NCBI RefSeq assembly: GCF_900116565.1
Contig: NZ_FPCJ01000001.1
Coordinates: forward strand, 2,104,540 to 2,168,539
From: Thermoflavifilum thermophilum
Lineage (GTDB): Bacteria; Bacteroidota; Bacteroidia; Chitinophagales; Chitinophagaceae
Length of the DNA stretch: 64,000 bases
Direction: 5' to 3'
Position 1 is the first letter of the stretch, and every line of letters starts with the position of its first letter. The translations under genes and the position numbers were made by a program. The notes beneath the pieces were generated by a model. That model was not told the origin of the DNA. It saw only the letters and a program-made list of their open reading frames with translations, and did not search any database. Shown piece by piece: positions 4,778-20,945 of this stretch.

Positions 4778-4951
4778 CAACAACTCTGCAGGCTTTTCGT
4801 TCAGCGCGTTCCAGGAAGGGTCATGCCCGGGTTATTTTTACAGAAAGTTTGACTTGGCTGACAAAACGACGGTTAAAGAGTTCATAATTTGTTCATTTTA
4901 TTTAGAAAATTATTTACTTTTTTTGCAGGCAGAAACCAAAACCTTTGCACT

Positions 4952-7900
4952 ATGCACTACAAAAAATTACTCTTGCTTACCTGCTTATGGATGTTAGCGC
5001 TGTTCACTGCCGCAGGGCAGGTTACGACGAGCAGCCTGGTAGGCACCGTTACCGATGCCAATGGACAACCCTTGGTGGGTGCTACCGTCAAAGCCATCCA
5101 TCTCCCCTCAGGAACTGTTTATGGAACGGTTACACAGGCCAATGGAACCTTTGCCATACAGGGCATGAGAGTGGGAGGCCCCTATCGTGTGGAAGTTTCT
5201 TACATTGGCTACCAGACAGGTGTATATGAAGGAATTCAACTAAGGTTGGGTGAGCCTTACAATCTATCTGCTCAGCTTGCACAAACCGGTAAACAACTGC
5301 AGGAGCTTACTGTGGTGAGTGCGCGAAAATTAGCACAGGAGCGCACCGGGGCGTCAACAGTTATTAACGTGGAGCAATTATCCACATTGCCTACTGTAAG
5401 CCGCAGCATTGTGGATTTCACAAAATTGACGCCACAAGCCAACGGAACCAGCTTTGCCGGTAGAGATGGACGTTACAACAATCTGCAAGTAGATGGAGCA
5501 AACCTGAACAACAATTTTGGTCTGAGCTCGGATCCATTGCCAGGTGGTGGGGATCAACCCATTTCGCTGGATGCTTATGATCAAATTTCGGTGAACATTG
5601 CCCCCTATGATGTGCGCCAGTCAGGCTTTACAGGTGCGGGTATCAACGCAGTTACCAAAAGTGGTACCAATACTTTTCATGGTTCTGCATACGGATATTA
5701 CCGCAACCAGCATTTTATTGGAACGCATGTGGGTGACGTGAATATCAAGAATCAAATTGTCAACAGCTCACATTCCATTTATGGCGCCACATTAGGCGGA
5801 CCTATCATTAAAAATAAGCTTTTCTTCTTTGCAAATGCAGAATTCGAAAAAGGCAATTCGCCCGGTATTTCATATTCTCCGAAGGGTGGATCGGGCCAGG
5901 GAACCGTTTCATCTACACCCATTGACTCATTGAAAAAACTCGCTGATTTTCTGAAAAACACCTACAATTACGATCCGGGTGCCTACGACAATTTCCCCAA
6001 TTTTGAATCAAAGAACCATAAGCTGCTGGCAAAAATCGACTGGAACATTAGCACCAAACATAAACTCACGGTGAAATACAGCGATTTTGTGGGTACACAG
6101 GATCAGCAAGTTAACGGAAGCAGCATTCCAAATGGTGGAGGTTTTAAGGTAACGGGTCGTACAGGTACAGTAAGTCGTTTGCCCAACAACCGTTTTAGCA
6201 ATAATTCCATGGCTTTTGCCAATTCCAATTATGGATTTAAGAATATTGTGCGTACGGCAACTGCTGAATTGAATAGCAATTTTAACAATAAGATAGCCAA
6301 CCAGTTCTTGTTAGCTTATACACGCATTCGCAGTACCCGCACTTTTCCTGGTAAAGTGTTTCCCACTATAGATATTTTTGATGGCAATGGGAATAACTAC
6401 ATCAGTGTGGGAATGGATCCATTCACCTATCACAACGATGTCATCAATAATATATTCAGTGCCACCGAAAATTTCACTTATTACTATAAAAATCACACAA
6501 TTACAGCAGGAGCCAGTTTTGAATATCAACGGGTAGGTAATATGTTTATGCCTGGATCGGAAAGTTATTACGTGTACAATACCTTGAACGATTTTATTAC
6601 CAATCAGGCACCCGTTTACTATGCATATACCTATTCCCTTGTAAATCCAGGTGGTGGCGTATATTCTGCCAATCTAAAAATTGGCCAGCTGGGCATCTAT
6701 GTACAAGATCAATATGATGTGAGTCGGGCATTGCGTTTGACTATTGGACTTCGTGCAGATAAGCCCGTTTATTTCCAACAACCTCTTGAAAATCCAGCCA
6801 TTACTGCATTAACATTTCCAGATGAGAACGGGAATATGACGCATTATACTACCGGTAAATGGCCTAAGGGTTCGGTATTGTTTTCTCCGAGAGTTGGATT
6901 CCGTTGGGATGTGAAAAAAGACAATACTTTGATTGTACGTGGAGGTACAGGCATATTCACAGGTCGCATTCCTTTTGTGTGGTTAACCAATATGCCTACC
7001 AACAGTGGAATGTATCAAAACAGCGTGCGCATCACAGATCCAACCCAGTTGGTTAATTACAAATTCAATCCTGATCCCAATGCTTACCTGAATAATTTCC
7101 CCAAAACTCCATCGGGAACGGTTCCGGCAAATATTGTGCTGATTGAACCTAACTTCAAGTTCCCACAAATCTGGCGTTCAGATCTGGCTGTAGATAAATC
7201 ATTGGGTAATGGCCTGGTTGCGACTGTGGAAGCTATGTACACAAAGGATATCCATGCTGTGCGCATGCGTAATGCAAATATGAAAAATCCGGATGGAACA
7301 GTGACGGATGCTCCTGGATTTACCCGCCCAGCCTTCACTTCAAGCTCCAACCGGTATTATTACAACAATATTTCAACAGCTATCGTGCTTGGCAATACCA
7401 ACAAAGGTTATGCGTATTCCATTACAGCCCAGTTAAGCAAATCATTCTCGAATGGCTTCTATGGTTCAATAGCCTATACTTTCACCCAATCGAAATCTGT
7501 AACCGATAATCCCGGCTCACAGGCAACTTCAGTGTGGAACTCAAATCCAAACGTAGGCACTTCCAATGCAGTAGAACTGGGATATTCTTCCTATTTTGTA
7601 CCCCATCGCGTAGTAGCTGATATTTCTTATCGGTTTGAATATGCAAAGCACTTTGCTACTACTATTTCCTTGTTCTACCAGGGTGAGAATAATGGAAATT
7701 ACAGCTTTGTGATAAATGGGGATTTAAATAACGATGGGAACAACTCTACCGATTTGATGTATATCCCAAAATCTGCCAGCGAGATTACTTTCCTTCAATA
7801 TACAGGTAAAGATGCAAACGGAAATACCGTTACCTTCACACCCCAGGATCAGCAGGCAGCCTTTGAAAGATTTATCAGCAGCTCGCCTTATCTGAAAAAG

Positions 7901-8251
7901 CATCGTGGACAATATGCAGAAAGAAATGCCGCATTGTATCCATGGTACAATGAGCTGGATCTGAAATTCCTGCAGGACTTTTACATTGTTACAGGAAAAA
8001 GTCAAACCAAACACAATCTTCAATTCTCGATTGATATCCTGAACTTTCTTAATCTGATCAATAAGAATTGGGGAATTGTGAAAACCACTTATACACGTAA
8101 TCCACTTATTTTCAAAGGACTTGATAGCAATGGTGTACCACAATATAATTTACAAAACATAGGTGGTGTGCTGGTTGATCATGCTTTCCAGAATGTAATT
8201 AGTCCGTCCAGTACATGGTATATGCAGCTTGGCCTCAGATATAGTTTTTAA
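4952..8251 (+). CDS. TonB-dependent receptor, Oar-like
   Basis: A 1099-residue outer-membrane protein. The ATG at 4952 begins a clear signal peptide (MHYKKLLLLTCLWMLALF, cleavage near AAGQ). The frame is open further upstream, but that extension is not a plausible protein start. Residues about 26-110 form a carboxypeptidase-regulatory-like beta-sandwich (LVGTVTDANGQPLVGATVKA). A plug domain follows, with the segment RDGRYNNLQVDGANLNNNFG. The long barrel ends in the outer-membrane signature LGLRYSF with terminal Phe. This resembles the Oar family of TonB receptors, whose substrates are mostly unknown. No SusD homologue is adjacent, so a polysaccharide utilisation role is not supported. The substrate cannot be read from the sequence. 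The gene stands alone with its own terminator. Confidence 0.93.
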   Translation: MHYKKLLLLTCLWMLALFTAAGQVTTSSLVGTVTDANGQPLVGATVKAIHLPSGTVYGTVTQANGTFAIQGMRVGGPYRVEVSYIGYQTGVYEGIQLRLGEPYNLSAQLAQTGKQLQELTVVSARKLAQERTGASTVINVEQLSTLPTVSRSIVDFTKLTPQANGTSFAGRDGRYNNLQVDGANLNNNFGLSSDPLPGGGDQPISLDAYDQISVNIAPYDVRQSGFTGAGINAVTKSGTNTFHGSAYGYYRNQHFIGTHVGDVNIKNQIVNSSHSIYGATLGGPIIKNKLFFFANAEFEKGNSPGISYSPKGGSGQGTVSSTPIDSLKKLADFLKNTYNYDPGAYDNFPNFESKNHKLLAKIDWNISTKHKLTVKYSDFVGTQDQQVNGSSIPNGGGFKVTGRTGTVSRLPNNRFSNNSMAFANSNYGFKNIVRTATAELNSNFNNKIANQFLLAYTRIRSTRTFPGKVFPTIDIFDGNGNNYISVGMDPFTYHNDVINNIFSATENFTYYYKNHTITAGASFEYQRVGNMFMPGSESYYVYNTLNDFITNQAPVYYAYTYSLVNPGGGVYSANLKIGQLGIYVQDQYDVSRALRLTIGLRADKPVYFQQPLENPAITALTFPDENGNMTHYTTGKWPKGSVLFSPRVGFRWDVKKDNTLIVRGGTGIFTGRIPFVWLTNMPTNSGMYQNSVRITDPTQLVNYKFNPDPNAYLNNFPKTPSGTVPANIVLIEPNFKFPQIWRSDLAVDKSLGNGLVATVEAMYTKDIHAVRMRNANMKNPDGTVTDAPGFTRPAFTSSSNRYYYNNISTAIVLGNTNKGYAYSITAQLSKSFSNGFYGSIAYTFTQSKSVTDNPGSQATSVWNSNPNVGTSNAVELGYSSYFVPHRVVADISYRFEYAKHFATTISLFYQGENNGNYSFVINGDLNNDGNNSTDLMYIPKSASEITFLQYTGKDANGNTVTFTPQDQQAAFERFISSSPYLKKHRGQYAERNAALYPWYNELDLKFLQDFYIVTGKSQTKHNLQFSIDILNFLNLINKNWGIVKTTYTRNPLIFKGLDSNGVPQYNLQNIGGVLVDHAFQNVISPSSTWYMQLGLRYSF

Positions 8252-8362: not shown

Positions 8363-9526
8363 ATGCGAATATGTGTGCTCCTGCAGGGGATGCTCATTTT
8401 TGGAATGATTCTGCAATCTAATGCACAATCCAGTGTTATTTCTTTTCTTCTTCATCGCATCGATAGTTGGCAAGTTAGGAGCGATGGTTTTTATTATGAG
8501 GGTATGTTCACGTCTTTTCGTTATTATGCAGCATTTCCTCACCGGCCCAAACAAGACAACAACATTTTTTTTACTGCGATAACCTGCTATACGTTGCGAC
8601 AGGTAAGGGCTGAATTACCAGATTCACTCCAGCCTGTGGCGGATAGTATATTGTTACGTGCACAGCATGCTTATGCTTTTTATCAAAAACCTCAACATCC
8701 ACTTACCTATAATTTCTGGCCGGTTGATCCACCAGAGGTTTTTCCAAATTCATTTTTATTAAAGCCTTTTCGCTATATCAACGCATTGTCCGACGATGCA
8801 GACGATGCCAGCATGATCTGGCTGGCCATGCATCCACCTGATAGTGTTATGAAGGCATATCATGCATACTTAACGGAATATGCCAATACCATGCATCATC
8901 AAATCAGAAATACTTACAAAAAATATAAACACTTACCTTTTTACAATACATGGTTTGGGGAAAAGATGCCTGTGGATGTGGATTTTTGTGTATTATGTAA
9001 TGTGTTGACTCTGCTATATTCTTATCATATTTCTTTCAATCGGTATGATAGTGCCAGCATGAAATGGTTGGAAGATATGCTTCAGGAACGAAAATATATA
9101 CTCGATGCAGCCTACATTTCCCCCCATTATGCCAGACCACCTGTGTTGATTTATCATGCAGCAAGGTTGTGGCACATAGCACATCCAGAATGGATGAAGC
9201 CTTATATAAAGCAGTTGCAAATGGATGCTATCCGATGTTTGCAGCACACGAATTGTGCAATGGATAGCATCATCCTTTACACTTCATTGATGCGCCTTGG
9301 AACTAAGCCTGAGGTAATGATGCAAATAGATGCCAATAGGGTAGAAGAAATCGAACAGCAATCTTGTGCTATATTTTTCGAAGCTGGTTTTTATGCTATG
9401 TTGCGCAACCCATTTAAACGATGGTTTACTCCACTTAGTTTTATCAAATATTATTTTTCCTCTCCGGCTTATGTGGATGCATTATTACTTGAATATATCA
9501 TGACATATAAATTTAGTGGTAATTAA
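8363..9526 (+). CDS. Secreted protein of unknown function with a DxDD-like motif
   Basis: I cannot assign a function. The 387-residue product starts at the ATG at 8363, giving a convincing signal peptide (MRICVLLQGMLIFGMILQ, cleavage near SNAQ). An upstream TTG in frame would spoil it. The mature part looks all-alpha. It holds ALSDDADDASMIWLAM at about residues 145-160, similar to the DxDD(T/S) acid motif and following helix of class II terpene cyclases and related alpha/alpha toroids. A Tyr-Asn-Phe-Trp-Pro segment sits about 30 residues earlier. Signal-peptide export argues against a cytosolic cyclase, so the likeness may reflect only the toroid fold. Its last 14 nt overlap the 3' end of the opposite-strand isoprenoid-synthase-like gene. 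Confidence 0.75.
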   Translation: MRICVLLQGMLIFGMILQSNAQSSVISFLLHRIDSWQVRSDGFYYEGMFTSFRYYAAFPHRPKQDNNIFFTAITCYTLRQVRAELPDSLQPVADSILLRAQHAYAFYQKPQHPLTYNFWPVDPPEVFPNSFLLKPFRYINALSDDADDASMIWLAMHPPDSVMKAYHAYLTEYANTMHHQIRNTYKKYKHLPFYNTWFGEKMPVDVDFCVLCNVLTLLYSYHISFNRYDSASMKWLEDMLQERKYILDAAYISPHYARPPVLIYHAARLWHIAHPEWMKPYIKQLQMDAIRCLQHTNCAMDSIILYTSLMRLGTKPEVMMQIDANRVEEIEQQSCAIFFEAGFYAMLRNPFKRWFTPLSFIKYYFSSPAYVDALLLEYIMTYKFSGN

Positions 9527-10568
9527 CTTTTTGCAATCCCTGGTAATACAATTTTCGGGTTGTTTTCAACCATAACTTTAGATTTTCAACTTTTTCCATG
9601 TCAATGATCCAGTCTTTTCGATGTGCGGAATCATAGGCAGGCAAATAATTTTGGTCGCCTTGCAAACGAGTAAGCTGGTCCATGGCAATATATCCAAAAC
9701 TCAGCGTACCAGCAATGTGCAATAAGAAATTTTGCTTGGCTGACTTGCGGGCAGGATGTTGTTTGATCAGTTCCCATAATGTTTCCACTTGTTGATGGAA
9801 GATGCGGACAAATTGATGCATATCCTGCACTGCCAGTACAGATGAACGGATTTGTTGTGAAGCATCTTTCCAGACGTCGTACAGATCGTTTGTCAGCTGA
9901 ATCAATACACCCAGCTGATACCAGATTTTTCGTTCAATTTCCGGAACTTTATCATCTAAATAATAACTGCTAAGTTGTACAGCATATCCGCCTTTGCGGA
10001 ATGTAATATCCAGAACTGTTGATGGAGGTAGATCCTTATCAAACTGAAGTAACGACTCTTTTTGCGCAGTAAACAACGCATGACTGCATATCTCATATCC
10101 CTGAGTATCGTTTACTTGTTTTCGCAACCAGCGATGGGCATCCAGAAATACCTCTTCCTCGAATGTGGTACTTGTTTCTTCTTCAGGCTTAAAGGAAAGC
10201 ATGGCTATCCGCTCAAAAGGCATACGCATGTCGTCCACAAAATAATCAAACAACGAACTGCAGATGAAATAATAAACAAAACGTTTTTTTTCAGCAGCTG
10301 ATGCCTTTCGTCCACGCAACCTGCAAAATCCTTCCACCACCACAGATTCGTAGATACCGTAGCTTACCGCAATTTTTTCAAAAATCTCAGGTGGAAATTT
10401 CTGAGCTTTTTCCTGCTCAATATGCCATAAACATTTTCTGGCGCGAAGCGTTTCGGTTTTTCTTTTCCGGATAATATCCCATGCTTTTATCAGCAGGCGT
10501 GTCAGAAAGCGGATATGTAAAATCACAGTCATTTCTGTGCAAAAACAGCTCAAGTTAGCCAATTCCAT
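9513..10568 (-). CDS. Class I isoprenoid synthase-like protein
   Basis: A 351-residue all-helical protein with hallmarks of the class I isoprenoid/terpene synthase fold. FDYFVDDM at about residue 110 resembles the first Asp-rich metal site. LGVLIQLTNDLYDVWKD at about residues 240-256 closely resembles the second Asp-rich region of prenyl diphosphate synthases, with the usual first Asp replaced by Asn. The substrate and product are unknown. Its overall sequence is too divergent to call FPP or squalene synthase. The ATG at 10568 is used here; Met13 is an alternative start. It is divergent from pruA, with only 62 nt between the starts. It converges on, and overlaps by 14 nt, the secreted DxDD-motif protein. 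Confidence 0.7.
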   Translation of the reverse strand: MELANLSCFCTEMTVILHIRFLTRLLIKAWDIIRKRKTETLRARKCLWHIEQEKAQKFPPEIFEKIAVSYGIYESVVVEGFCRLRGRKASAAEKKRFVYYFICSSLFDYFVDDMRMPFERIAMLSFKPEEETSTTFEEEVFLDAHRWLRKQVNDTQGYEICSHALFTAQKESLLQFDKDLPPSTVLDITFRKGGYAVQLSSYYLDDKVPEIERKIWYQLGVLIQLTNDLYDVWKDASQQIRSSVLAVQDMHQFVRIFHQQVETLWELIKQHPARKSAKQNFLLHIAGTLSFGYIAMDQLTRLQGDQNYLPAYDSAHRKDWIIDMEKVENLKLWLKTTRKLYYQGLQKVNYH

Positions 10569-10613: not shown

Positions 10614-10630
10614 TAGAAAATCTATTGTTC

Positions 10631-12262
10631 ATGAGCAATGGTTATTTTTATTTTCCCGAACCACAAAACGAGCCTGTTTATGCCTATGCTCCGGGGTCAC
10701 AGGAGCGGCAGTTGCTGAAACAGCAACTGGTACATCACAAGGCTGAAGAGCTGGATATTCCCATGTATATCAATGGTCAGGAAGTGCGCACAGGACAGCG
10801 GATTGCCATTCATCCTCCGCATGAATTGCGACATACCCTGGGGTATTATCATAAGGGCGATGCCAGCCATGTGCAGGCTGCCATTGATGCGGCCCTGAAG
10901 GCAAAAGCGGCCTGGGCTTCTATGCCATGGGAACACCGGGCTTCCATTTTTTTAAAAGCTGCAGATCTGATTACGGATAAGTACCGGTATGCTATGAATG
11001 CCACCACCATGCTGGGGCAGAGTAAAAATGTATTTCAAGCTGAAATTGATGCGGTATGCGAACTGGCCGATTTCCTGCGGTTTAATGTACATTATCTCAG
11101 TGAAATTTATGCACAGCAACCGATTTCTCCACATGGAGTCTATAACCGCATGGAATATCGTCCGCTGGAAGGCTTTGTGGTAGCTATTACGCCGTTTAAC
11201 TTTAGCTCCATTGCCGGAAATCTGCCTACTGTGGCCGCCATGTGTGGCAATGTAGTGGTTTGGAAACCCGCGGAAAACCAGATTTACGCAGCTCAGCAAT
11301 TCATGCGCATTTTGATTGAAGCAGGTCTTCCCGCTGGTGTGATTAACCTGGTTTTTGCTCCTGGTGCAACGGTAGGTGAAATTTGTTTCAATCATCCTGA
11401 TTTTGCAGGCGTGCATTTTACAGGATCGACAACAGTGTTTCAAGACATGTGGAATAAGATCGGACAGCATATTGCCCGTTACAAATCTTATCCGCGCATT
11501 GTAGGTGAAACCGGAGGCAAGGATTTTGTAATAGCGCATGCTTCAGCCGACATAGATGCGGTGGTGGCCAATTTGGTGAGAGGTGCTTTTGAATATCAAG
11601 GACAAAAATGCTCGGCTGCATCGCGAGCCTACCTGCCCTCCAATCTGGCAGATAAAATTGTAGATAAATTAATCCATGAGGTTAAAACCATCAGAATGGG
11701 TACAGTGGAAGATTTCAGGAATTTCATGAATGCGGTGATTGATGAAAAGGCTTTCGATAAAATTACAGGTTATATTGAACAAGCACGAAAAAGCCCACAG
11801 GCACAGATTCTGGTAGGCGGGAATGCGAGCAAAGAGGAAGGATATTTTATTGAACCCACTGTGATTGAAGCCAAAGATCCGCATTTTGTAACAATGGAAG
11901 AAGAAATCTTTGGTCCCGTGTTATCGGTATATGTGTATGATGAAAAACACTATGAAGAAACATTGGATCTGGTTGATCGCACTTCACCTTATGCCTTAAC
12001 CGGGTCAGTTTTTGCTACCGATCGCAAAGCCATTCTGCTGGCTGAACAAAAACTGGTGAACAGTGCAGGTAATTTTTATATCAATGATAAACCCACCGGT
12101 GCGGTGGTAGGTCAGCAACCCTTCGGTGGAGCAAGGGCTTCAGGCACCAATGATAAAGCAGGATCCATACTGAATCTATACCGCTGGCTGAGTGTGCGTA
12201 CCATCAAGGAAACTTTTGTACCCGTGCTGGATTACCGATATCCTTTCATGAAAGAATCTTAA
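10631..12262 (+). CDS. pruA: L-glutamate gamma-semialdehyde dehydrogenase
   Basis: The last step of proline degradation: NAD-dependent oxidation of glutamate semialdehyde (from pyrroline-5-carboxylate) to glutamate in the cytosol. The 543-residue protein is a full aldehyde dehydrogenase of the PruA type found as a stand-alone protein in Bacteroidota. Visible are the nucleotide-binding run ITPFNFSSIAGNLP, the general-base Glu in VGETGGKDFV, the catalytic Cys in GQKCSAASRAYLP and the C-terminal PFGGARASGTNDKAG. The ATG at 10631 is chosen over a TTG six bases upstream. No proline dehydrogenase is in the window. Confidence 0.95.
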   Translation: MSNGYFYFPEPQNEPVYAYAPGSQERQLLKQQLVHHKAEELDIPMYINGQEVRTGQRIAIHPPHELRHTLGYYHKGDASHVQAAIDAALKAKAAWASMPWEHRASIFLKAADLITDKYRYAMNATTMLGQSKNVFQAEIDAVCELADFLRFNVHYLSEIYAQQPISPHGVYNRMEYRPLEGFVVAITPFNFSSIAGNLPTVAAMCGNVVVWKPAENQIYAAQQFMRILIEAGLPAGVINLVFAPGATVGEICFNHPDFAGVHFTGSTTVFQDMWNKIGQHIARYKSYPRIVGETGGKDFVIAHASADIDAVVANLVRGAFEYQGQKCSAASRAYLPSNLADKIVDKLIHEVKTIRMGTVEDFRNFMNAVIDEKAFDKITGYIEQARKSPQAQILVGGNASKEEGYFIEPTVIEAKDPHFVTMEEEIFGPVLSVYVYDEKHYEETLDLVDRTSPYALTGSVFATDRKAILLAEQKLVNSAGNFYINDKPTGAVVGQQPFGGARASGTNDKAGSILNLYRWLSVRTIKETFVPVLDYRYPFMKES

Positions 12263-18960: not shown

Positions 18961-20184
18961 ATGCGCCATCTCCCTTCCACCCTGGTCCGTTTCTATCTGC
19001 AAAAAGCGATTGAATGGCTGCAGCAATACCTGTCGGCTGGCGATATGCCACTGCATCTTTTTTTGAAAAACAAGTTTCGCTGGTGTTCGTCGTCGGGTGA
19101 ACATGCTCCGCAGTTGGGCTCGCGTGATCGTCGTTACATATCAGCTCTGCTTTACGATTATTTTCGGTTGGGGAAAAGCTTTTCCGGTAGGAGCGTAGAA
19201 GACCGGATGATGATTGGATTTTTAATTTGTGAGCAAGATCCAACCCCGATTATTCGGGAATTGCGGCCGGAATGGCTGCAGGCAACAGCTTTTGCCAATC
19301 CTTTGGAAAGAGCCGGCTGGTTTGCTGATTTTCAGCCGGAGGACATTTTTCCCTGGGCATCGGAGTTAAGTCCGGGAGTGGATGCCCGAGCTTATGCTGT
19401 GAGCTATTTGCAGCAGCCCAACGTGTTCATTCGTATTAGGCCGGGGCATGAAGGTGGGTTTGCGGTATTGCCCGACCCGATTGTCCGCGTGAGTCGTCAC
19501 ACGTTAGCGGTTCCCGCAGCTACCAATTTGCATCGGTTGCTGCGTGCCCGGGAAGGTGTGGATTATGTGGTGCAGGATTGGGCATCCCAGCAGGTCATGG
19601 AGTGGCTCATAGAGGAGCTGCCTGCCGGCAAGGCAGACCCATCGCATGTGTGGACTGTATGGGATTGCTGTGCCGGCAGCGGGGGTAAATCGCTTTTTCT
19701 GGCCGATCATCTCCCGATGCAGCAGCTCGTGGTTACCGATATCCGTGCTTCCATTTTGACCAATCTCCGCCAACGCTTTCGCCTGGCCGGCATCCGTAAA
19801 TACAAGTCGGCTGTGTTAGATGTAACCCAAGCCGAAGCTTCTGATAACATCCTGGGTAGCAAACGGTTTGATTTGATCATTGCCGATGTTGCCTGCAGTG
19901 GCAGCGGCACCTGGGCGCGTACACCTGAACAACTGCATTTTTTCATTCCGGAGCAACTTAAGGATTTTCATAACCGACAGATTTCCATTGTAAAACAAGC
20001 CTGTCGCCATCTCCAACCTGGTGGCTATCTGGCCTACATCACCTGTTCGGTATTTCGCAGGGAAAACGAAGATGTGGCCGATGAAATCCGGCAAATGGGA
20101 CTCACGTATGTAAATAGCACTCTTATCACCGGTTATTCGGCAGGCGGGGATTCCATGTTTGTTGCGCTGTTTCGGGCATCCTAA
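18961..20184 (+). CDS. RsmB/RsmF-type rRNA (cytosine-5) methyltransferase
   Basis: An S-adenosylmethionine-dependent RNA m5C methyltransferase of the Fmu/NOL1 family, 407 residues. An N-terminal helical region resembles the NusB-like part. The methyltransferase core has the SAM-binding motif DCCAGSGGKSL (about residue 238), DVACSGSGTWARTPEQL for motif IV, and YITCSVFRRENE for motif VI with the nucleophile Cys. In motif IV the usual Pro-Cys is Ala-Cys. The Cys is kept and the Pro is lost. The target is probably 16S rRNA, but the exact cytosine cannot be told. It begins 11 nt after sucB, so it may be cotranscribed, and its end overlaps the opposite lipoprotein gene by 4 nt. Confidence 0.87.
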   Translation: MRHLPSTLVRFYLQKAIEWLQQYLSAGDMPLHLFLKNKFRWCSSSGEHAPQLGSRDRRYISALLYDYFRLGKSFSGRSVEDRMMIGFLICEQDPTPIIRELRPEWLQATAFANPLERAGWFADFQPEDIFPWASELSPGVDARAYAVSYLQQPNVFIRIRPGHEGGFAVLPDPIVRVSRHTLAVPAATNLHRLLRAREGVDYVVQDWASQQVMEWLIEELPAGKADPSHVWTVWDCCAGSGGKSLFLADHLPMQQLVVTDIRASILTNLRQRFRLAGIRKYKSAVLDVTQAEASDNILGSKRFDLIIADVACSGSGTWARTPEQLHFFIPEQLKDFHNRQISIVKQACRHLQPGGYLAYITCSVFRRENEDVADEIRQMGLTYVNSTLITGYSAGGDSMFVALFRAS

Positions 20185-20945
20185 AGGGTATCTTTCAGGC
20201 TGAGGATTATTTCCACACCGTTGCGAGGCTTCAGGGCCTGACAATTACCCTGCGAATCGTAGCCCGCACATTGTTGTTCCCAATGAATGAAATGGCGGTA
20301 CACCAGGCCGATTCCCCGGGCATATTGTTCGATGCTGTAGGTGCGAAAAGCATAGGTATTGCTTTGCAACGAATCATTGGCCTGCATCACCGTGAGGGTA
20401 GAGTCAAAACGAATTCCACCAGGAGAAGCGGGCTGATTCACCTGTTGGTAGGTATAGATCCAGCCGCTCAGGTATTGCAGGTCGGGGTTTAGGTTGGTTT
20501 CGATGTAAGCATTTCCGTCCCAGCTGGCATTGTCTCGCACAGGGAAAATCAGCTTGATGAAACGCAAATTACCTTCCAGCCATTCCATGCGCCGGGGTAG
20601 CAAGGTAATGGCTATGCTGATATTCGGTTGCCAGGTGGCGGAGCCGAGCGGGCGCAGTTGCCGCAGGATACGAAATACCGTTTGTCCGGAATCATCCGTA
20701 TAACTGGTATCCACTCGATCCCACGCTTCATAGCGGGAAGTATCCACGCTTCCGTCAAAATCGTGGTAAACAATCGAATCCAGCCAATAGTGCCTTTCCA
20801 TACCCACATATATCGGAAAATAGGCATAGCCCATATCAGGCGGAGGAACTTGTTCAGATTTATGGCATGAGCTGAGAAGCATGATGATTCCAGCCAGCCC
20901 AACGCCAGCCAGCATATGTTTCGCTTGCAGAAACCCTGTGCGCAT
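20181..20945 (-). CDS. Putative lipoprotein of unknown function
   Basis: I do not recognise a family. The 254 residues start with a basic N-terminus and a hydrophobic stretch, ending in LLSSC at about residue 27. This is a lipobox, so the mature protein is probably a lipid-anchored envelope protein. The rest looks beta-rich, with Trp and Tyr scattered (YFPIYVGMERHYWLDSIVYH near the N-terminus). It resembles the many single-gene Bacteroidota lipoproteins with no known role. The start ATG at 20945 is the first that gives the signal sequence. It converges on the rRNA methyltransferase gene with a 4-nt overlap, and 250 nt of featureless sequence separates it from the divergent flavoprotein gene. 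Confidence 0.75.
   Translation of the reverse strand: MRTGFLQAKHMLAGVGLAGIIMLLSSCHKSEQVPPPDMGYAYFPIYVGMERHYWLDSIVYHDFDGSVDTSRYEAWDRVDTSYTDDSGQTVFRILRQLRPLGSATWQPNISIAITLLPRRMEWLEGNLRFIKLIFPVRDNASWDGNAYIETNLNPDLQYLSGWIYTYQQVNQPASPGGIRFDSTLTVMQANDSLQSNTYAFRTYSIEQYARGIGLVYRHFIHWEQQCAGYDSQGNCQALKPRNGVEIILSLKDTL

Follow-up and report, generated by a model that had tools for sequence, protein, structure and literature searches.

Do two neighbouring genes of Thermoflavifilum thermophilum (Chitinophagaceae, Bacteroidota) encode successive steps of a terpenoid pathway, and might one of these enzymes work outside the cytoplasm? The window, the whole 64,000-nucleotide stretch of DNA that was analysed (contig NZ_FPCJ01000001.1, positions 2,104,540 to 2,168,539), carries a pair of open reading frames (ORFs) whose products are here called P0001 and P0002. 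An earlier note, made from the sequence alone, placed these ORFs tail to tail, recognised a class II cyclase-like motif in one product and class I-like motifs in the other, and was puzzled by a signal peptide on the first. It left two alternatives, a secreted toroid that resembles a cyclase in appearance only or an unusual exported cyclase. Our analysis suggests that P0001 is very probably a competent class II cyclase, by its predicted model, and that the second of these alternatives fits better on the grounds of fold and acid network. P0002 is, again judged by model, probably a class I terpene synthase. The ORF coordinates confirm the convergent arrangement, and the features on which the argument depends are as follows.

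8363..9526, forward strand: P0001, class II terpene cyclase-like, monodomain, with a signal peptide-like N-terminus; 387 amino acids, ATG at 8363, stop codon ending at 9526
9513..10568, reverse strand: P0002, protein with a predicted class I isoprenoid-synthase fold; 351 amino acids as ORF
9513..9526, strandless: overlap of the convergent P0001 and P0002 genes, 14 bases
8363..8425, forward strand: signal peptide-like N-terminus of P0001, residues 1-21, possible cleavage between A21 and Q22, from the sequence and a family hydropathy tally
8792..8812, forward strand: DDADDAS, class II DxDD motif of P0001, residues 144-150; D145 and D147 align with D331 and D333 of the drimenol synthase AsDMS
8999..9001, forward strand: N213 of P0001, aligned with the Asn of the AsDMS NVLY stretch
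9128..9130, forward strand: Y256 of P0001, aligned with AsDMS Y427
10233..10247, reverse strand: first Asp motif of P0002, DYFVD, residues 108-112; D, D/N, x, x, D in most relatives
9864..9890, reverse strand: second metal motif of P0002, NDLYDVWKD, residues 227-235; (N/D/E)DxxDxxxD in 51 of 51 relatives

P0001 reaches no Pfam or NCBIfam cut-off and has no Pfam row even with the E limit relaxed to 1; among aligned family members of both proteins there are scattered weak rows only. A single-sequence search of the PDB sequences returns fungal AstC weakly (E 0.025). With a 12-sequence profile AsDMS is matched among all PDB sequences (E 8.1e-4) and it is still the top match of a 76-sequence profile (E 0.0047), the best single stretch being weak alone (0.028, 0.12). 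The larger profile comes from alignment A4, which holds 76 of 83 available sequences (the window and 75 of 82 others). Taken from sequence alone, kinship of P0001 and AsDMS is suggestive. The relatives considered below derive from 178 class II hits that reduce to 128 distinct sequences, and from 103 class I hits that reduce to 51.

The predicted structure is more informative about the fold. The AlphaFold2 model of P0001 has a mean predicted local distance difference test score (pLDDT) of 93.5 and a predicted template modelling score (pTM) of 0.92, and describes an alpha/alpha toroid of the TCbeta type, the class II beta domain. The earlier note had looked to structure prediction for a decision, and the fold predicted for the first protein is indeed that of a toroid rather than something unrelated. 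Foldseek gives ten matches at E of 0.001 or below, all of them AsDMS (1.8e-9 to 2.9e-8), and the model aligns to that enzyme from residue approximately 187-201 onward, which is the TCbeta part. Re-alignment with VIA gives Z 30.4 for AsDMS (300 aligned residues, 4.0 Å), 23.5 for the one-domain class II cyclase MstE (299 aligned, 3.5 Å), approximately 22 for squalene-hopene cyclase (23.3 for 8paj, so titled) and 20.6 for SsDMS. Thirty of the first 31 VIA rows are titled class II or squalene/oxidosqualene cyclases, the other being an untitled Actinoplanes protein.

The DDADDAS motif singled out by the earlier note is conserved beyond chance, with D145 and D147 invariant in 128 of 128 relatives. 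N213 and Y256 are intact in the same 128 distinct sequences, and all four residues are among 13 invariant columns of the 76-sequence alignment. This conservation is strong, but conserved columns help to steer an alignment of this kind and the two are therefore not independent. Placement of residues on AsDMS was by hand reading of a printed profile alignment, that is in sequence and not in coordinates. In AsDMS the D331A, D331N, D333N and Y427F substitutions each abolish activity entirely (PMC12365925). The acid of AstC, D273, is described as oriented by N324 and Y361, and the N324A and Y361F changes abolish product (PMC13244436). The Asn of the AsDMS NVLY stretch would, we infer, be the counterpart of AstC N324.

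The residues that hold the diphosphate have fared differently. In AsDMS, Y373A and Y426A cause total loss of activity and R378A a 96% loss, which the authors link to phosphate recognition (PMC12365925). By hand reading, AsDMS Y373, R378, R425 and Y426 align with W197, M202, P254 and H255 of P0001. Among the 128 relatives a tyrosine occupies position 197 in 10 and position 255 in 25, and none has arginine at 202. Lysine or arginine is present at position 201 in 87 of 128 and could serve as a partial stand-in for the clamp. Judged by this alignment, the P0001 family retains the acid machinery and for the most part not the known diphosphate clamp; since the AsDMS binders are mostly replaced, a diphosphate-free substrate is plausible.

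Comparison with characterized enzymes is instructive. AsDMS and AstC, which are HAD-TCbeta proteins (PDB codes 9m7d-f, 9mhs and 22ty), are the best match to P0001 by both sequence and fold, and share with it the class II beta-domain toroid and the aligned Asp, Asp, Asn and Tyr. In contrast to them P0001 has no HAD phosphatase domain (no Pfam HAD match, and a length of only 387 amino acids), carries DxDD(T/A/S) and not DxDTT, has lost most of the diphosphate binders and possesses a signal-like N-terminus. MstE, the merosterolic acid synthase (PDB code 6sbc) of the cyanobacterium Scytonema, is a monodomain class II enzyme with a single beta domain and a length about that of P0001. Its substrate, from the entry titles, is geranylgeranyl dihydroxybenzoate, which is diphosphate-free. 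MstE does not appear among the PDB matches of the P0001 sequence profiles, even with E allowed to reach 10, and we know of no signal peptide on that protein. The SQHop_cyclase family PF13243 matches neither P0001 nor anything in the window's genome, and 387 residues does not fit the length of a two-domain, beta-gamma enzyme; a QW-like motif is seen in 5 of 128 relatives.

The N-terminus of P0001, MRICVLLQGMLIFGMILQSNA followed by QSS, resembles to the eye a Bacteroidota signal peptide, in keeping with the earlier note. A lenient test sought a ten-residue stretch of mean hydropathy at least 2.0 after a possible ATG, GTG or TTG start and upstream of the domain. Leaving two lineages aside, 94 of the 95 scorable rows are signal-like by this test; the two lineages give 1 of 25 rows (the Spirosoma group) and 0 of 5 (f12, from another class of the phylum). 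The rows outside these two signal-less lineages number 98, three of them without an N-terminus, and comprise all unassigned sequences, many named only Bacteroidetes. In many members Ala-Gln or a similar pair ends the segment; a crude lipobox pattern occurs in 3 of 128. The signal does not split the midpoint-rooted class II tree cleanly because four signal-bearing rows (L088, L072, L067 and L094) sit on its Spirosoma side. If the signal is real then prenyl diphosphates made in the cytosol would not be the natural substrate of P0001, and the non-diphosphate substrate so implied agrees with the missing clamp.

What then is the partner? P0002 also reaches no Pfam or NCBIfam cut-off and has just two Pfam rows (E 0.13 and 0.4). 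The best relevant weak row is polyprenyl_synt, which 9 of 50 class I members match (E 4.2e-4 at best). PF00494, the phytoene/squalene synthase family, does not match P0002 over the cut-off; with E relaxed to 0.1, 4 of 50 members of alignment A6 match it (best 0.023). There is a weak local alignment of the P0002 family with octaprenyl diphosphate synthase (E 0.016 over 78 profile positions). The two motifs noted earlier, DYFVDDM (residues 108-114) and LIQLTNDLYDVWKD (residues 222-235), hold up well across the family: D108 with Asp or Glu at 112, a first motif of DDxxD/E type, is kept in 50 of 51 relatives, and in the second motif, kept in all 51, D228, D231 and D235 are invariant. K192, considered as a candidate for the helix Lys of E-isoprenyl diphosphate synthases, is present in 50 of 51.

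The all-alpha model of P0002 (pLDDT 86, pTM 0.86) adopts a class I isoprenoid-synthase fold, and both Asp motifs are present, again in line with the earlier note. Foldseek places the dehydrosqualene synthase CrtM best (E 8.1e-4) and Sat1646, a class I pimarane-type diterpene synthase (PDB code 7e4n), at rank 5. In VIA Sat1646 is top (Z 17.0, 268 aligned, 3.7 Å, 11% identity), followed by MoeN5 (16.7) and the class IB structures 6loo (16.4) and 5yo8 (15.8), with prenyl synthases and canonical class I cyclases then at approximately 15. VIA scores that differ by no more than 1 Z count as ties, and a shared arrangement of helices can by itself bring bundles to about 13, so the model supports the fold class, whilst the tied scores leave the nearest subfamily undecided. 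Isoprenyl diphosphate synthases have a pair of arginines shortly after the first Asp motif. No such pair occurs within 15 residues from position 112 on in any of the 51 relatives, nor does any carry an NSE/DTE second motif. The RXXKD motif of class ID, as given in PMC11234867, is likewise found in 0 of 51. The retained Asp motifs, together with the absence of the Arg pair, NSE and RXXKD, argue for ionisation of a prenyl diphosphate without condensation of isopentenyl diphosphate. The DDxxD-like and NDxxDxxxD motifs of P0002 are unlike those of class IB as set out in the same source. Non-canonical terpene synthases of classes ID, IE and IF, also described there, resemble P0002 in having a class I-like fold hidden among hypothetical proteins and sometimes outside clusters (PMC11234867).

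Whether the two proteins belong together is addressed by their distribution. Among 195 genomes of Chitinophagaceae, the class II gene is present in 48 and the class I gene in 68. The latter occurs in 40 of the 48 class II genomes compared to 28 of the 147 others (one-sided p 1e-15) and, counting genera by hand, in 24 of 27 with class II compared to 16 of 74 others (p 9e-10); since the genomes are related the p values are a guide only. Of the 40 genomes that carry both genes, 19 have them no more than 2 kb apart, 15 on the same strand with class I upstream and four tail to tail, the latter all in the window's genus. The adjacency label needs four changes on the class II tree and six on the class I tree, at least two of the changes in each being forced by well-supported branches, and the existence of two gene orders suggests that the genes were joined more than once. 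Of the inner branches, 29 of 125 are open in the class II tree and 20 of 48 in the class I tree, which also contains long branches. The co-occurrence that the earlier note proposed to test is thereby borne out for the window's family, often with adjacency, but not for a second family, f10, discussed below.

A sample of 296 genomes across the phylum contains 11 with class II and nine with class I, seven shared. Two rows appear spurious, a class II row in G251 (E 9.6e-4, a fragment with a stop) and a class I row in G265 (E 7.9e-4, two stops), the latter genome giving nothing by profile search. Without them six genomes have both genes, four class II only and two class I only, one of which (G267) has E 4.0e-4.

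We suggest that the pair forms a two-step terpenoid pathway distributed over two proteins and, in this family, two compartments, an explanation to which, as a whole, we give an even chance. The order of class I first and class II second is based on the apparent export and the missing clamp of P0001; this order, the substrate, the product and the location of the second step are what we infer, whilst the computation supports both folds, both sets of catalytic residues, their conservation, the co-occurrence, the repeated adjacency and the export-like N-terminus. Cytosolic P0002 would hold a polyprenyl diphosphate through Mg2+ at D108/D112 and N227/D228/D231/D235, expel the diphosphate and set free a neutral terpene, either linear or cyclic. 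The signal peptide of P0001 would direct this enzyme out of the cytosol, to take up the neutral lipid in the periplasm or outer membrane. There D147, oriented by N213 and Y256, would protonate a terminal double bond, and inside the toroid a cation cascade would close rings. A polycyclic lipid of hopanoid-like or drimane/labdane-like type is the probable product. Such logic has a precedent in Bacillus, where YtpB makes tetraprenyl-beta-curcumene and SqhC converts it to baciterpenol A, a neutral polyprenyl terpene thus being cyclised by a class II enzyme to a membrane terpenoid (PMC8144471). SqhC is there a homologue of squalene-hopene cyclase, whereas P0001 is monodomain.

The components of this proposal do not stand equally. 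That P0001 and P0002 serve the same pathway in Chitinophagaceae we regard, on balance, as the likelier case. Export of P0001 with the class II step acting second on a neutral substrate falls a little short of even. The most specific version, in which an exported class II enzyme of Chitinophagaceae closes rings in a neutral polyprenyl lipid of the periplasm or outer membrane, is fed by a new cytosolic class I enzyme and yields a hopanoid-like lipid in the absence of squalene-hopene cyclase, is tentative and rather doubtful.

Several observations weigh against the two-step, two-compartment proposal. With a stricter test for export (ATG starts only, and a cleavage pattern required), the 128 class II sequences divide into 64 signal peptides, 14 hydrophobic N-termini without the pattern, 47 with none, which include both signal-less lineages, and three lacking the N-terminus. 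The crude cleavage pattern fits only 58 of the 94 signal-like rows. The signal assignment draws on hydropathy and inspection by eye, and the segment may possibly be an uncleaved anchor. Within Chitinophagaceae eight of 48 class II genomes have no class I gene, and the 28 class I genomes counted above give no class II match. Family f10 has the class II gene in 52 of 61 genomes (one, G514, as a weak fragment only), and a profile search finds the class I family in 0 of 61, although a strongly diverged copy could escape and that search held no positive control; elsewhere the profile matches in all 4 genomes of another lineage and in 68 of the 195 Chitinophagaceae. By the tree f10 groups with Spirosoma and Larkinella, its rows falling among those named loci, and nearly all the class II rows scored in this grouping are without signal. 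Class II without a detectable class I partner in f10 suggests that the enzyme there probably has a substrate independent of this class I protein. The changes of adjacency could be gains or losses, so that several origins are not proven by the trees alone. Housekeeping-like genes flank many class II genes instead, and the class I model was built on just four aligned sequences.

Three other explanations should be considered. Copalyl diphosphate is the product of a class II step. Sat1646, the leading but tied fold match of P0002, accepts copalyl diphosphate, as stated in PMC9814573, and the reverse, labdane-type order could be envisaged, with both enzymes on the cytosolic side. An N-terminal helix that stays uncleaved would then hold P0001 at the inner membrane, where it would cyclise a prenyl diphosphate, and P0002 would ionise the cyclic diphosphate. 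The two lineages without signal are compatible with this, as is the AlphaFold2 model, which draws the N-terminus and the first domain helix of P0001 as one continuous helix. Such an order requires P0001 to stay on the inner side, but the N-terminus reads as cleavable with small residues ahead of the glutamine in many members, and the diphosphate-binding residues essential in AsDMS are mostly absent. We consider it unlikely, though the strongest of the alternatives. The proteins might also be two genuine terpene enzymes in separate pathways, joined by lineage history, the class II substrate existing irrespective of the class I gene. The unpartnered class II genes of f10 and of the eight Chitinophagaceae genomes favour this, as do the many class II genes flanked by what we read, from the sequence, as acyl-CoA dehydrogenase-like and YggS-like genes. 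Adjacency in two gene orders with at least two forced changes on each tree, and co-occurrence that persists at the level of genera, make separate pathways improbable.

It is very unlikely, in our estimate, that P0001 is a secreted alpha/alpha toroid of some other function, such as a carbohydrate enzyme or lipid binder, and a cyclase in looks only. Exported toroids are often carbohydrate enzymes, and epimerases and a GH105 entry do superimpose on the model, with VIA Z from 16.7 to 18.5, the highest value being that of a carbohydrate epimerase. The first non-cyclase row of Foldseek is an unsaturated glucuronyl hydrolase (E 3.0e-3). AsDMS is however far ahead on both measures, cyclases dominate the upper VIA rows, the acid network is intact throughout the family and Pfam offers P0001 no other identity.

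Two further sources of substrate or activity were tried and rejected. Squalene or a carotenoid supplied by a phytoene/squalene synthase finds no backing in the distribution of PF00494, which 35 of 48 class II genomes have compared to 99 of the 147 without class II (p 0.59), leaving 13 class II genomes that lack it; the window's genome has one PF00494 gene, away from the pair. As for squalene-hopene cyclase, 20 genomes gave no PF13243 match over the cut-off and two weak rows below it.

The surroundings of the pair bear on how it may have arisen. One further feature is needed here.

10625..12262, forward strand: aldehyde dehydrogenase (Pfam Aldedh), context gene, presumably P5C dehydrogenase-like

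An aldehyde dehydrogenase gene often lies divergently beside class I: the wider neighbourhood was read for 44 of the 51 distinct class I rows, and 20 of these have such a gene within 1.5 kb. As it is found there even in genomes with class II at another place, class II seems to have been the gene that moved. Eight window neighbours have Pfam matches: the aldehyde dehydrogenase, OsmC, an aldo/keto reductase, two oxoglutarate dehydrogenase-type subunits, an RsmB/F-type methyltransferase, an FMN dehydrogenase and a riboflavin enzyme; the ninth scanned has none. On this gene content a biosynthetic gene cluster around the pair was rejected. Neighbours of the relatives were clustered and the starts of cluster representatives read by eye, with no family search; recurrent ones look housekeeping-like, and tailoring enzymes near single loci are possible. 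The gene at 4889-8251 we take, on reading it, to encode a TonB receptor-like protein. A 254-residue ORF at 20181-20945 on the reverse strand has no Pfam match at E up to 1e-5.

For P0002 an alternative start is Met13 at base 10532, a methionine in 8 of 8 rows of alignment A2, though this is weak evidence, the start of some A2 rows having been picked by the analyst. The window's genome is 2.86 Mb. The closest named relative of P0001, in a scan that kept the best 80 of 217 relatives, is from Thermoflavifilum sp. (L023, 63% identity), and L153, from genome G400 of the same genus, has identical scores. A single scan of viral contigs with P0002 alone found no viral copies.

Other loci show further arrangements. 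Tandem class II duplicates lie between the acyl-CoA dehydrogenase-like and YggS-like genes in L049 (3143-5559), L058 (6581-8997) and L087 (667-3092), and such paralogues may differ in substrate. In L178 (genome G344) a single class II gene is preceded, on its own strand, by two class I genes in tandem that have diverged strongly. In L179-L182, from four f12 genomes, class I sits in a conserved block by a gene that we read as LepA-like and class II is on other contigs.

The kinds of enzyme, a monodomain class II cyclase and a class I synthase, are known; the pair of families and the apparent export are new. We recognised no report of these two families or of an exported terpene cyclase in the literature searched, subscription journals and preprints being mostly outside that search, and to our knowledge no terpene cyclase has previously been known to work outside the cytoplasm. 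Together the two families extend across Chitinophagaceae, Spirosoma-type bacteria and one more lineage, and both appear to consist of terpene enzymes; as the window members fall below the Pfam and NCBIfam cut-offs, mining with those models would probably miss them. The occurrence of one protein family with and without a signal makes the question of export directly testable. If the class II enzyme is exported, then lipids are the object of a carbocation cyclase beyond the cytoplasm; this would alter the view of where terpenoid chemistry can take place, and might indicate an unrecognised class of outer-membrane lipid.

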